Source of the DNA: Limnochorda sp. L945t | Lineage (GTDB): Bacteria > Bacillota > Limnochordia > Limnochordales > Geochordaceae | NCBI RefSeq assembly: GCF_035593305.1 | Contig: NZ_CP141615.1 | Coordinates: 2,139,722-2,203,721, forward strand | Direction: 5' to 3' | Length of the DNA stretch: 64,000 nt | Shown: positions 21,620-26,175 of the stretch, piece after piece | Numbering within the stretch: position 1 is the first letter of the stretch | Layout: the number at the start of each line of letters is the position of its first letter | Translations under genes and position numbers: made by a program | Notes under the pieces: model-generated | Told to the model about the DNA's origin: nothing | Databases searched by the model: none | What the model saw: only the letters and a program-made list of their open reading frames with translations

Positions 21620-22393
21620 ATGGGTGCCATCATCCGGTGGGTGAAGTCCACCCGCCTGTTTCGCTCCATCTACCGGGAAGGGTATCCGACGACGCCCCGT
21701 ACCCGGGTCGCGGTCATCCTCAACAGCCTGGCCCTGCACCTGCACCCGGTACGCGTGCCCCGGCGGGCTACCCGGGTCACGTACACGTGGGGGCTGGGTG
21801 GGCTCTCGGTTTACATGTTCGTCCTTCTGACCATTACCGGGGTCTTCCTGATGTGGTACTACATCCCCAGCACGCAGGACGCCTACTGGTCCATCCGCTT
21901 CATCGAAAGCGAGGTCACCTTCGGGCAGTTCATGCGCAACCTGCACCGCTGGGCGGCCCACGGCATGGTGATCATCGTCTTCCTGCACATGTGCCGGGTC
22001 TTCTACACGGGCGCCTACAAGCCGCCGCGGGAGTTCAACTGGGTCATCGGGGTGGCGCTGCTCACCATCACCTTCCTGCTGAGCTTCACCGGCTACCTGT
22101 TGCCCTGGGATCAGCTCGCCTACTGGGCCATCACCGTCGGCACCAACATGGGGGGCGCGACGCCGTTCATCGGCGATCAGGTCCGGCGCATGCTGCTGGG
22201 CGGTCTCGATATCGGGCAGGCGACGCTGGTGCGCTGGTACACCCTGCACGTGATCTTCCTGCCGCTCCTGACCATCGTGCTCATGTCGCTCCACTTCTGG
22301 CGAGTCCGCAAGGACGGCAACATCTCGACCCCGGTGCTCGAGGACGAGCCCGAGCCGCCGGGCTATCCCCCGGTCATCGAGCAGGAGGGGTGA
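21620..22393 (+). CDS. petB: Cytochrome b6-type subunit of quinol oxidoreductase
   Basis: N-terminal half of split cytochrome b, 257 residues and four helices. Haem ligands are H109 and H123 in helix B and H210 and H225 in helix D, the 14/15 spacing of b6-type proteins. It oxidises menaquinol at the Qo site together with subunit IV and the Rieske protein. The position that carries a covalent-haem cysteine in Bacillus and chloroplast b6 (YC-LGG) reads YTWGLGG here, so no covalent haem ci is predicted. The N-terminal 50 residues are basic. It begins 146 bp after the copper protein; no terminator is visible between them. Confidence 0.94.
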   Translation: MGAIIRWVKSTRLFRSIYREGYPTTPRTRVAVILNSLALHLHPVRVPRRATRVTYTWGLGGLSVYMFVLLTITGVFLMWYYIPSTQDAYWSIRFIESEVTFGQFMRNLHRWAAHGMVIIVFLHMCRVFYTGAYKPPREFNWVIGVALLTITFLLSFTGYLLPWDQLAYWAITVGTNMGGATPFIGDQVRRMLLGGLDIGQATLVRWYTLHVIFLPLLTIVLMSLHFWRVRKDGNISTPVLEDEPEPPGYPPVIEQEG

Positions 22394-22405: not shown

Positions 22406-23239
22406 ATGACCACGGCACAACCGCAAGAAGATCGAGCTGCGTCTCGCGTCGCGGTCCTGGAGTCCGCGGCCGCCCCGTCCCCGGCGGCGAGGCCCAGGCC
22501 GTCCCAGGAAAACCCGGACGAGAAGGTGCACACCTGGCCGTACCTGGTGCGCATCGAGTTCGTGGGGGCGCTGTTGTACCTCTTCCTGCTCTCCCTCATG
22601 TCCGTGTTCGTCGACGCGCCCCTCGCCTCCCTCGCCAACCCCGACGTCACGCCCAACCCGGCCAAGGCGCCGTGGTATTTCCTGGGCCTGCAGGAGCTGC
22701 TGCTCCACATGGACAAGGCGCTGGCCGGAGTCATCGTGCCCGGGGCCGTGCTCGTGCTCCTGGCGGCCATCCCCTACGTCGACCACCGCCGCAAGGGCAC
22801 GGGGATCTGGTTTTACAGCCCCAAGGGCGTCCCCATCGCCCTGTTCAGCTTCGCCTACACGTCGGTCTGGAACGTCGGGCTCATCCTGGTCGACCAGTTC
22901 CTCATGGTGCCCGGCGAGCAGGGCGGGCACGGCATCGGGCCCATCATCCGGTACTGGTTGCACTCCTTGCGCCAGGGAGGCGGCTACGGTTTCCTGACGG
23001 ACAGCGTCGTCAACGGCATCGCCGGCTGGATCGTCCCGATCTTCATCATGCTCTTGATCCCGACGTCCCTGGCGCTCATCGTCCGGCGGCGGTGGCAGGC
23101 GGACACCCGGGAAGTCCTCATCGGGTTGTTCACCTTCTTCGTCGCCTCGTTCGTGGTGCTCACCGTCGTGGGCACGGCCTTCCGCGGCGAGGGGATGAAC
23201 CTCATGTGGCCGTGGCAGGTCAAACAGGCCAACCACTGA
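22406..23239 (+). CDS. petD: Subunit IV-type cytochrome b C-terminal half
   Basis: A 277-residue membrane protein corresponding to helices E-H of cytochrome b. The Qo-site motif is [13 protein letters not shown], the APWY variant seen in several non-proteobacterial lineages in place of PEWY. There is a Pro/Ala-rich cytoplasmic N-terminus (about 1-40) and an extra C-terminal hydrophobic section ending GMNLMWPW. Compared with chloroplast subunit IV (160 residues, three helices) it has about two additional helices. It follows petB by 12 bp and forms the second half of the quinol-oxidising core. Confidence 0.9.
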
Positions 23240-23270: not shown

Positions 23271-23849
23271 ATGGCAACCGAAGAGCAACCGGCCAGGAAG
23301 GCGAAAGCTTCGGCCGACGGTCGCGAGGCCGGCGCGCCCGGCGCGGCCAGACGGTCGCTGCCGCCGGTCGAACGGGTCGAGAGCCCGGAAGTGAAGCGCC
23401 GCATCTTCATGCGGTGGGTGATGTGGGGTTCGGCTTTCCTCTTCTTCGCCCAGAGCGCGGCCGCCAGCCTGGCCATGTTCTGGCCGCGCAAGGTCGTCGG
23501 CTTCGGCACCAAGATGGACGTCGGGCCGGTCAGCGCCTTTCCGGTCAACTCGGTGACCAAGTTCGCGCAGGGCAAGTTCTGGCTTTCCCGAACGCCGCAG
23601 GGGGCCATCGCTCTCTACTGGCGCTGCACCCACCTCGGCTGCACCGTGCCCTGGCGGGAGGACGAACAGCTCTTCCACTGCCCCTGCCACGGCTCCATCT
23701 ACGAGCGTAACGGGCAGAACATCGCAGGGCCGGCGCCTCGCCCGCTCGACTACATGACCGTCGAGGTCGTCAACGGGCACCTCGTGGTCAATACCGGTGA
23801 GATCCACGAACGGGCCGTGGCGCTGCCGCAGCACATGACCCCGGTTTGA
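23271..23849 (+). CDS. petC: Rieske iron-sulfur protein
   Basis: A 192-residue protein with one N-terminal transmembrane helix (about 47-70) after a 45-residue charged cytoplasmic tail. The [2Fe-2S] binding boxes are C119-T-H-L-G-C124 and C137-P-C-H140-G-S; the disulfide cysteines C124 and C139 are present. It takes the first electron from quinol at the Qo site and passes it to the cytochrome c. It follows petD by 31 bp with a GGGGGAG-type site. The order b6-subIV-Rieske differs from the Rieske-first order of Bacillus and heliobacteria. Confidence 0.94.
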   Translation: MATEEQPARKAKASADGREAGAPGAARRSLPPVERVESPEVKRRIFMRWVMWGSAFLFFAQSAAASLAMFWPRKVVGFGTKMDVGPVSAFPVNSVTKFAQGKFWLSRTPQGAIALYWRCTHLGCTVPWREDEQLFHCPCHGSIYERNGQNIAGPAPRPLDYMTVEVVNGHLVVNTGEIHERAVALPQHMTPV

Positions 23850-23884
23850 GCCGCTGGGTCCGGCGCATGGGGGAGGGAACGGGC

Positions 23885-23986
23885 GTGGAGGTCCCGGAGT
23901 CGGTCGAGCTCTTGCTGGTCTTCTTGCTGGTCGTCGTGGCCGAGACGGCGCTCTACTTCATCGACCGCTGGATCCATGACGAGTAG
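23885..23986 (+). CDS. 33-residue single-helix membrane peptide, candidate complex subunit
   Basis: A short frame between the Rieske and cytochrome c genes. The GTG start has GGAGG at an 8-base spacing. An in-frame ATG at 23867 would add six residues but has no site. The product is one hydrophobic helix (ELLLVFLLVVVAETALYFI) flanked by acidic residues at the front and DRWIHDE at the end. Length, position and design resemble the small PetG/L/M/N subunits of b6f complexes, though I see no sequence homology. Predicted to be a structural subunit of the complex; unproven. Confidence 0.6.
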   Translation: MEVPESVELLLVFLLVVVAETALYFIDRWIHDE

Positions 23987-24013: not shown

Positions 24014-24856
24014 TTGAAGGGCCGAACGTACATCGTCGTCACGGTGCTCAGCTGGGCTCTCGTGGTCCTCTGGGGAGCCTACTGGGCGCGGGAGAATTCC
24101 CGCATGGCCGCTACGGCGGCTACCTTCAAGGCGCAGCTGATCGATCAGGGCGCGACCATCTACGCGCAAAATTGCGTCATCTGCCACGGCCCGCTGGGCG
24201 AGGGCGTCGTCGGTCCCAGCCTCAACCGGGACGCGTTGCGGGGCGACCCCGAGAACGATGCGGACACCTACCGGTTCGTCTACGATACGGTGAGCCGCGG
24301 GCGGCCCGGCTCGGTGGTGACCCGGTGGCAGATGCTGCCCAACGGAGAGCTGGCGTCGTTCAGCCAGATGCCGTCATGGAGCAGCGAGAACGGCGGCCCT
24401 CTCAACGAGCAGGAGCTGCGGGCCGTCACGTATTTCATCATGGCCGGCAACTGGAACGACGTCAACTTGCGCATCCCGCAGGCCAAGCTCGAAGGCCCGC
24501 TGCCCAAAGCCGAGGGCGTGCCCCCTGAGGTTCAGCAGCAGGCGGAGCAGGTGATCCGGCAGAAGCTGTGCCTCACCTGTCACACCATCGGCCAGGTCGG
24601 AGGGCACATCGGGCCCGACCTCACCCACGTCGGCTCGTGGGGCGTCGACCAGGCGTTCTTGAAGGAGTGGATCAAGAACCCGCCGGCCAAGCAGCACCGG
24701 GCGCCGGTCTGGTTCTCCAACAGCGCCGGGATCGACCCGAAGACCGGTCAGCCCTCGGGCACCCGGATCGAGTACGGGCCGACGACCATGCCCGTGCTCG
24801 GGTTGACCGACCAGGAGCTGGAGGTCGTCACCCGCTATCTCATGGGGCTGAAGTGA
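24014..24856 (+). CDS. Membrane-anchored diheme cytochrome c of the quinol oxidase
   Basis: A 280-residue protein with an uncleaved N-terminal anchor (about 5-25) and two class I c domains. CVICH lies near residue 54 and CLTCH near 184; likely Met ligands are in SQMPSW and TTMPVLG. A diheme cytochrome c ending the b6/subunit IV operon recalls the heliobacterial PetA, not the monoheme QcrC fusion of Bacillus. It would accept electrons from the Rieske protein and pass them on, probably to the copper protein. TTG start at 24014 with GGAAGGGAG about 10 bases upstream. Confidence 0.88.
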   Translation: MKGRTYIVVTVLSWALVVLWGAYWARENSRMAATAATFKAQLIDQGATIYAQNCVICHGPLGEGVVGPSLNRDALRGDPENDADTYRFVYDTVSRGRPGSVVTRWQMLPNGELASFSQMPSWSSENGGPLNEQELRAVTYFIMAGNWNDVNLRIPQAKLEGPLPKAEGVPPEVQQQAEQVIRQKLCLTCHTIGQVGGHIGPDLTHVGSWGVDQAFLKEWIKNPPAKQHRAPVWFSNSAGIDPKTGQPSGTRIEYGPTTMPVLGLTDQELEVVTRYLMGLK

Positions 24857-24862
24857 GCGAGC

Positions 24863-25459
24863 ATGAAGGGGTGGGTCGTGGCGGGCGCAGGCGCTGCGGC
24901 CCTGGCGGGCGGAGCCGCTTTCCGGGCGGCCGCCTCCACGGGCGAGCCGGGCTACCGCATGGCGGGGACCATCCTGCTGGTGGCGACCGGGTGGTTGCTG
25001 ACGCTGGCCCTGGAGGGGCAGCAGGTGGCGGCCGGGCTGCGTGCCCTCGAAGAGCGGCTTTCGGCGGCCAGCCAGAAGTACGGCCTGGCGCTCGAGCGCC
25101 TGCCGGACAGATGGGCGGCCCGGCAGCGCTGGGCGGCCGGGTACGTCGTGGAGGGGCCCGGCAAGCTGATGGTCGTGGCGGCCTGCCCGGTCTCGCACGC
25201 GGCGTGGAGGGGGCTTGCGGCTCGGGCCGTCGACGCCTGTGCCAGGAGCGCCCGGGACACGGCGCGATCGCTGCAGCGCCGGCGCCAGGCCGAGCAGTCC
25301 CGCAGCCCGGTCGCCTACGCCCTGGTCGTCTTGCTGCGCCGGCGGGCCAGCGCGGCGGACGCCGACAGGCTCCGCAAGCTCGGATGCGGCCTCGCCAATC
25401 CCGAGCACCTGCCGGCCGTGCTCGAGCCGCTCGCGCGGCCCGAGATCGAAGGAGCGTGA
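24863..25459 (+). CDS. Unrecognised membrane-associated protein of the respiratory block
   Basis: 198 residues, no family recognised. Two short hydrophobic segments (about 4-25 and 34-51) could be transmembrane helices. The rest is a basic, Ala/Arg-rich soluble region with an AAGYVVEGPGKLMVVAACPV strand-rich patch near residue 95 and a coiled-coil-like helix (residues about 115-145). Only two cysteines, at VAACP and LGCG, so it is unlikely to bind a cluster itself. It sits 6 bp after the cytochrome c gene and 6 bp before the polyferredoxin gene, so it is surely co-expressed. A role in assembling or anchoring the ferredoxin is a guess. Confidence 0.6.
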   Translation: MKGWVVAGAGAAALAGGAAFRAAASTGEPGYRMAGTILLVATGWLLTLALEGQQVAAGLRALEERLSAASQKYGLALERLPDRWAARQRWAAGYVVEGPGKLMVVAACPVSHAAWRGLAARAVDACARSARDTARSLQRRRQAEQSRSPVAYALVVLLRRRASAADADRLRKLGCGLANPEHLPAVLEPLARPEIEGA

Positions 25460-25465
25460 GGGCGA

Positions 25466-25906
25466 GTGGCCCATTACATCACCGATAAGTGCATCGGGTG
25501 CACGGCGTGCGTCAACGTCTGCCCCGTCGACTGCATCACGGGGCAACGGGACCATCTCCACGTCATCGACGCCGGCCAGTGCATCGACTGCCACGCCTGT
25601 GCCTACATCTGCCCGGTGGAGGCGATCGTGGACCGGTGGGGCCGCACCATCCCCCGCATCAAGAAGCGGGCCGATTGGCCCAAGCCGGTCATCGACCCGG
25701 TGCTCTGCTCGGGATGCAACTTCTGTGTGGACGTGTGTCCGGAGAGCTGCCTGAGCCTGGAGGGCGGGGGCCCCTTCGAAGGAGTGGCCGTGCTCGCCGA
25801 TCCGAAGGCCTGCGTCGGCTGCGGGCTGTGTGAGGACGTCTGCGCCAAGGGGGCCATCGTAGTTCCGCCGCCCAAGGTCCTCGAGGAGGCAGGGATTCCG
25901 GCCTGA
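25466..25906 (+). CDS. Polyferredoxin with four [4Fe-4S] binding motifs
   Basis: A 146-residue soluble iron-sulfur protein, GTG start. Cysteine sets fall at C9-12-15-19, C39-42-45-49, C81-84-87-91 and C116-119-122-126, two tandem bacterial-ferredoxin units, each followed by Pro except the last (CA). An Arg/Lys-rich linker (about 57-72) joins the halves. No signal peptide, so it is cytoplasmic. A ferredoxin in the same transcript as a quinol:cytochrome c oxidoreductase is unusual. It could deliver low-potential electrons to the quinone pool through an unknown partner, or belong to the two unrecognised membrane proteins beside it. Confidence 0.88.
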   Translation: MAHYITDKCIGCTACVNVCPVDCITGQRDHLHVIDAGQCIDCHACAYICPVEAIVDRWGRTIPRIKKRADWPKPVIDPVLCSGCNFCVDVCPESCLSLEGGGPFEGVAVLADPKACVGCGLCEDVCAKGAIVVPPPKVLEEAGIPA

Positions 25907-25932: not shown

Positions 25933-26175
25933 ATGGGGACGCTGGCGGCGCTGCTCACCGTGGCAGCCGCCGGCGCCAACGTGGTCTGGTTCGCCCGGCA
26001 CGGCGTGGGCCCTCTCGCGCTCCTCGTGGCCGCGGGGCCGCTGTGGTTGGGCGTGGCCGCCTTCATCGGGGCCGTGACCGGCGGCGGATGGCTCCTCGGC
26101 CGGCTGGCCGGCGGGCACCGGCGCCGGGAGGCCCAGCCGGATCCCGCGCATCCGCGCCAGAACGAGAGCCAGTGA
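25933..26175 (+). CDS. Small two-helix membrane protein
   Basis: 80 residues: two hydrophobic segments (about 3-20 and 27-58, the latter Gly-rich) and a short charged C-terminal tail (GHRRREAQPDPAH). It follows the polyferredoxin by 26 bp and closes the block. No in-frame start exists further upstream. No family recognised. It may be a membrane docking partner for the ferredoxin, but only context supports that. Confidence 0.55.
   Translation: MGTLAALLTVAAAGANVVWFARHGVGPLALLVAAGPLWLGVAAFIGAVTGGGWLLGRLAGGHRRREAQPDPAHPRQNESQ

Follow-up and report, generated by a model that had tools for sequence, protein, structure and literature searches.

We identified a 33-codon open frame in the window (the whole stretch of 64,000 nucleotides that was analysed) as the gene of a one-helix membrane protein, situated between the Rieske and cytochrome c genes of a bc-type gene cluster. 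That the frame is a real gene is virtually certain. Its product is probably a stoichiometric one-helix subunit of the Rieske/cytochrome b6 complex, a membership to which its genomic linkage points: the gene accompanies those of cytochrome b6, Rieske and cytochrome c in deep-branching Bacillota and in many Chloroflexota. The peptide represents a new family of one-helix proteins, within a class, the supernumerary Rieske/cytochrome b subunits, that is already known.

The frame starts with GTG, ends with TAG and encodes MEVPESVELLLVFLLVVVAETALYFIDRWIHDE (Table 1). It occupies a 164-base gap between the Rieske stop at 23849 and the TTG start of the cytochrome c gene at 24014, and a ribosome-binding-like site was found ahead of it in 21 of the 25 homologues checked. 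The preliminary description of this locus, made from the DNA letters, had listed a 33-residue frame with GGAGG at 8 bases and one helix between these two genes, and was right in each of these points. Upstream the frame stays open as far as a TTG at 23846; GTG 23885 is likely the true start because in the two nearest relatives (G001 and G002), too, conservation sets in at GTG-GAA-GTC. The cluster on the + strand is composed, in order, of genes for a cupredoxin-like protein, cytochrome b6, subunit IV, Rieske, the 33-codon frame and the diheme cytochrome c, and continues with those for a 198-residue protein, a polyferredoxin-like protein and an 80-residue two-helix frame. The 198-residue protein, encoded between the cytochrome c and ferredoxin genes, is 28-43% identical across the clusters of relatives and is another uncharacterised component of the bc cluster. 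Limnochordia and Symbiobacterium-like loci keep the polyferredoxin-like gene within their bc clusters, at 57-69% identity, which suggests a functional tie between ferredoxin and the bc complex. The two-helix frame marks the end of the cluster and, among the named loci compared, was seen only in the nearest relative (L074).

Table 1. Features of the peptide gene and the surrounding bc cluster in the window.
Feature	Position	Strand	Basis
Cytochrome b6-type subunit	21620..22393	+	Pfam PF00033, E 4e-50
Subunit IV-type (cytochrome b C-terminal) subunit	22406..23239	+	Pfam PF00032, E 2e-7
Rieske iron-sulfur subunit, directly 5' of the peptide gene	23271..23849	+	Pfam PF00355, E 2e-8
GGAGG ribosome-binding-like site, 8 bases before GTG	23872..23876	+	Sequence; similar site in homologues
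One-helix membrane protein gene, 33 codons	23885..23986	+	Frame; same-slot homologues in all close relatives; pN/pS 0.17
Predicted hydrophobic helix, about residues 9-27 of the peptide	23909..23965	+	Alignment of 49 members; E5/E8 before, R28 after
Membrane-anchored diheme cytochrome c, directly 3' of the peptide gene	24014..24856	+	Pfam PF00034/PF13442, two heme motifs
198-residue protein	24863..25459	+	No Pfam family
Polyferredoxin-like protein	25466..25906	+	
80-residue two-helix frame	25933..26175	+	

The short length of the frame and the lack of a database family would fit a spurious frame, yet the frame is conserved over two phyla and the peptide gene is under purifying selection. Ten independent pairs of relatives show 101 synonymous differences at 264 sites versus 52 non-synonymous differences at 800 sites, giving a pooled pN/pS of 0.17 (Fisher 5e-32). 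The comparison proposed in the preliminary description thus came out with synonymous change in excess. Furthermore, wherever a close relative has the flanking genes, the frame stands unbroken in the same slot; loss or breakage of the frame beside intact flanking genes, set beforehand as the outcome that would speak against the candidate subunit, was not seen. These conservation tests refute a spurious frame, to which we assign next to no chance.

The distribution of the peptide in Bacillota follows that of one type of Rieske protein. When 61 related genomes were searched with the single peptide sequence, it was present in 13, exactly those that encode a Rieske protein closely homologous to that of the window, and in all 13 its gene lies directly after the Rieske gene; the 48 genomes without a close Rieske homologue gave no credible match. 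This single-sequence search matched only the slot between Rieske and cytochrome c, with E-values down to 2e-9. A profile built from the 13 sequences was run on a phylum sample of 398 genomes, where its matches reach E 1e-23. Rieske homologues at E<=1e-54 occur in 12 of the 398 genomes (the next best is at 4e-29), and all 12 encode the peptide between Rieske and cytochrome c, while no peptide was found in the other genomes of this sample. Among the 12 are Symbiobacterium-like and Thermaerobacter-like genomes with quite diverged sequences, e.g. MFEVLESVELLAVMIVIFLCLVAVDTVERFTGRPLEKSGEDD. Weak profile matches in G353 and in G406, the latter being the one unlinked match of similar strength in the 398-genome sample, lack the family signature and were dismissed as chance. 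Finally, a Rieske profile scan of named genomes returned 80 loci. The 20 named Bacillota loci in which the Rieske gene lies in a bc cluster, a set that overlaps in part with the 61- and 398-genome sets and includes Symbiobacteriaceae and Thermaerobacter MAGs, all have the peptide directly downstream of Rieske; in the nearest relative, Limnochordaceae bacterium Bu05, the Rieske protein is 98% identical and the peptide identical. Six other loci (L089, L097, L100, L101, L105 and L114) carry a Rieske gene of the same type, with neither cytochrome b6 genes in the fetched flanks nor the peptide.

The anatomy of the family was derived from an alignment of 49 members. Its signature consists of V-x-[ED]-x-x-E-[LV], a hydrophobic helix and then Q-[RK]. 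Position 5 is acidic in all members, position 8 is Glu in 94% and position 9 Leu in 86%; at position 28, 91% have Arg or Lys, in many cases with Gln just before it. The N flank contains 109 acidic versus 4 basic residues and the C flank 57 basic versus 28 acidic ones. Given this charge bias and the positive-inside rule, the N-terminus is predicted to be outside and the C-terminus inside. A periodicity of the conserved positions along one face of the helix was not significant in the same alignment (p 0.18). Members measure from 33 to about 80 residues, and those of Thermomicrobiales and Symbiobacterium-like genomes have longer N- or C-terminal extensions with the core unchanged.

No family in Pfam or NCBIfam matches the peptide, and the PDB chains contain no relative (the best hit, at E 0.07, is a permease). 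Likening the frame to PetG, PetL, PetM and PetN of the chloroplast and cyanobacterial b6f complexes, as the preliminary description did, holds as an analogy of size and topology: both cases comprise a single helix in about 30-40 residues, the company of cytochrome b6, subunit IV and Rieske, and, judged by charge bias, an N-terminus outside and a basic C-terminus inside. The likeness does not extend to sequence. Probabilities obtained with hhalign against PetG, PetL and PetN were 0.9%, 0.6% and 0.6%; of the three, it was the PetG sequences that had been checked against PDB entries. Likewise, the Pfam models of b6f small subunits (PetG/L/M/N) matched none of 23 members; for PetM, this Pfam search was the comparison made. 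The b6f complex also has four small peptides versus the one found here, and the peptide differs in the conserved acidic pair [ED]xxE at its outer end and in being encoded within the bc operon. Divergent membership in the PetG (or PetL/PetN) family might be suspected from the similar length, the one helix, the same predicted topology and a cytochrome b split, b6f-like, into b6 and subunit IV. However, with profile probabilities below 1%, no Pfam match and an acidic pair that is absent from PetG, we rejected homology to PetG, PetL or PetN and regard such a kinship as very improbable.

The peptide was scanned for in two phyla, Bacillota and Chloroflexota, and in the latter 28 of 301 genomes carry it at E<=1e-4. 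In several named Chloroflexota loci a same-strand copy of the peptide gene follows cytochrome c or precedes cytochrome b6, and in Thermomicrobiales it follows tandem plastocyanin genes in the bc cluster; no peptide was seen in the distant Anaerolineae-type clusters among the named loci. The earlier proposal of a bc/b6f-complex subunit gains support from this linkage, which reaches Symbiobacterium-like and Thermaerobacter-like genomes as well as Chloroflexota and from which we infer the subunit status itself. Many other Chloroflexota copies are unlinked from bc genes and lie amid unrelated ones, adjoining bactofilin-like, ComEC-like, transporter-like or nuoN-like genes (named by inspecting translations, with no family search). 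Such neighbours could be taken to mean that the peptide is part of another membrane complex or a small membrane protein on its own, for instance one that bridges to a terminal oxidase, its bc linkage being a matter of co-regulation. We consider this quite unlikely: the unlinked neighbours vary by genome and point to no alternative partner, Bacillota copies are always within the bc cluster, and in Chloroflexota the peptide still goes with the cytochrome b6 type. There, it is found in 16 of the 23 genomes whose cytochrome b6 most resembles that of the window (E<=1e-98) versus 12 of the 278 others (Fisher 4e-14, in a test that ignores phylogeny). Some Chloroflexota genomes with a window-type cytochrome b6 have no detectable peptide. 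Cytochrome b6 at E<=1e-66 is present in 25 of the 28 peptide-bearing genomes; the three exceptions (G590, G618 and G741) may be incomplete assemblies, since their peptides closely resemble those of genomes with the cytochrome. At three loci (L189, L202 and L211) the unlinked peptide gene lies beside a bactofilin-like gene (start MFKK.EE.EWTRF), and some of these neighbourhoods have a ComEC-like gene nearby on the opposite strand.

Among the named Chloroflexota loci, cytochrome c usually has two N-terminal helices where the cluster lacks a linked peptide and one where the peptide is linked. Diheme cytochromes c with two helices, and no linked peptide in the cluster, were recorded at L254-L259, L261-L267, L269 and L272; a one-helix cytochrome c goes with a linked peptide, with L112 as an exception. 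Replacement of the peptide by a second cytochrome c helix, or its fusion as that helix, was rejected because most of the sampled two-helix genomes encode the peptide elsewhere. A frame in G573 (L216) that fuses cytochrome c and peptide is uninformative, as the join spans a run of unknown bases. A comparable case is cytochrome c1 of Aquifex aeolicus, whose extra N-terminal helix has been interpreted as a supernumerary component in fused form (PMC10041115). The likeness lies in the supernumerary helix, and several Chloroflexota of our set have a two-helix cytochrome c; in Aquifex, however, the helix is fused to the cytochrome and not separate, whereas most of the sampled two-helix Chloroflexota still encode a separate peptide.

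By analogy, the nearest documented parallel to the peptide is subunit IV (fbcQ) of Rhodobacter sphaeroides, the helix of which lies across the anchors of Rieske and cytochrome c1 and the presence of which increases activity about threefold; mitochondrial QCR9/UQCR10 has a similar place (PMC10041115). Both belong to a Rieske/cytochrome b complex as supernumerary subunits with one helix, as the peptide would, and the gene of Rhodobacter subunit IV stands apart from the main operon, as the unlinked Chloroflexota copies do from the bc genes. Subunit IV differs in its 124 residues with a soluble domain, and neither it nor QCR9/UQCR10 gave a sequence match to the peptide in Pfam, NCBIfam or the PDB chains. 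The premise of the preliminary description, that no small subunit is established for Firmicutes complexes, agrees with our literature searches on such subunits in the bc complexes of Firmicutes or Chloroflexota, where nothing relevant was found beyond the Rhodobacter paper (PMC10041115).

The gene is linked to and co-inherited with those of the core subunits, as expected for this functional class. We propose that the peptide would be a stoichiometric supernumerary helix of a Rieske/cytochrome b6 complex that oxidises menaquinol and includes a diheme cytochrome c, and that it would be present in the purified complex. It would cross the membrane once, from an N-terminus outside to a C-terminus inside, and would brace the cytochrome b core and the one-helix anchors of Rieske and cytochrome c, the two subunits encoded on either side of it. 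In doing so it may stabilise the complex or tune quinol oxidation, like Rhodobacter subunit IV and mitochondrial QCR9/UQCR10. At one locus (L075) the five genes for b6, subunit IV, Rieske, peptide and cytochrome c are all in one frame, and their products were folded as one read-through chain with the stops read as Gly; the result (pTM 0.47, mean pLDDT 62) is too poor to show any docking site.

Alternatively, the peptide could be a dedicated assembly or maturation factor, co-transcribed with the complex and absent from the finished enzyme, that guides, for example, the anchors of Rieske or cytochrome c into the membrane. The linkage, selection and co-occurrence data also fit such a factor, and the unlinked genes of many Chloroflexota would suit a protein made without a fixed ratio. 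On the other hand, the length and single helix match those of known stoichiometric one-helix subunits, most members have no soluble domain, and the gene is kept beside structural genes in every Bacillota locus; we therefore regard an assembly role as unlikely. Going further than a bracing subunit, one could imagine an ancient and hitherto unrecognised subunit family of menaquinol:cytochrome c oxidoreductases in Bacillota and Chloroflexota, in which the outer acidic pair joins the reaction itself, e.g. in proton release or in Rieske movement near the quinol-oxidation site. We put this forward as a doubtful extension.

Small subunits of bc/b6f complexes are treated as lineage-specific additions. 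With a conserved one-helix subunit common to two deep bacterial phyla, a core respiratory enzyme would gain a further component. If the peptide is a subunit, this would point to several independent origins of supernumerary helices, and structures or reconstitutions of these complexes would have to include it. The peptide is also an example of how family databases miss membrane subunits of 30-50 residues.
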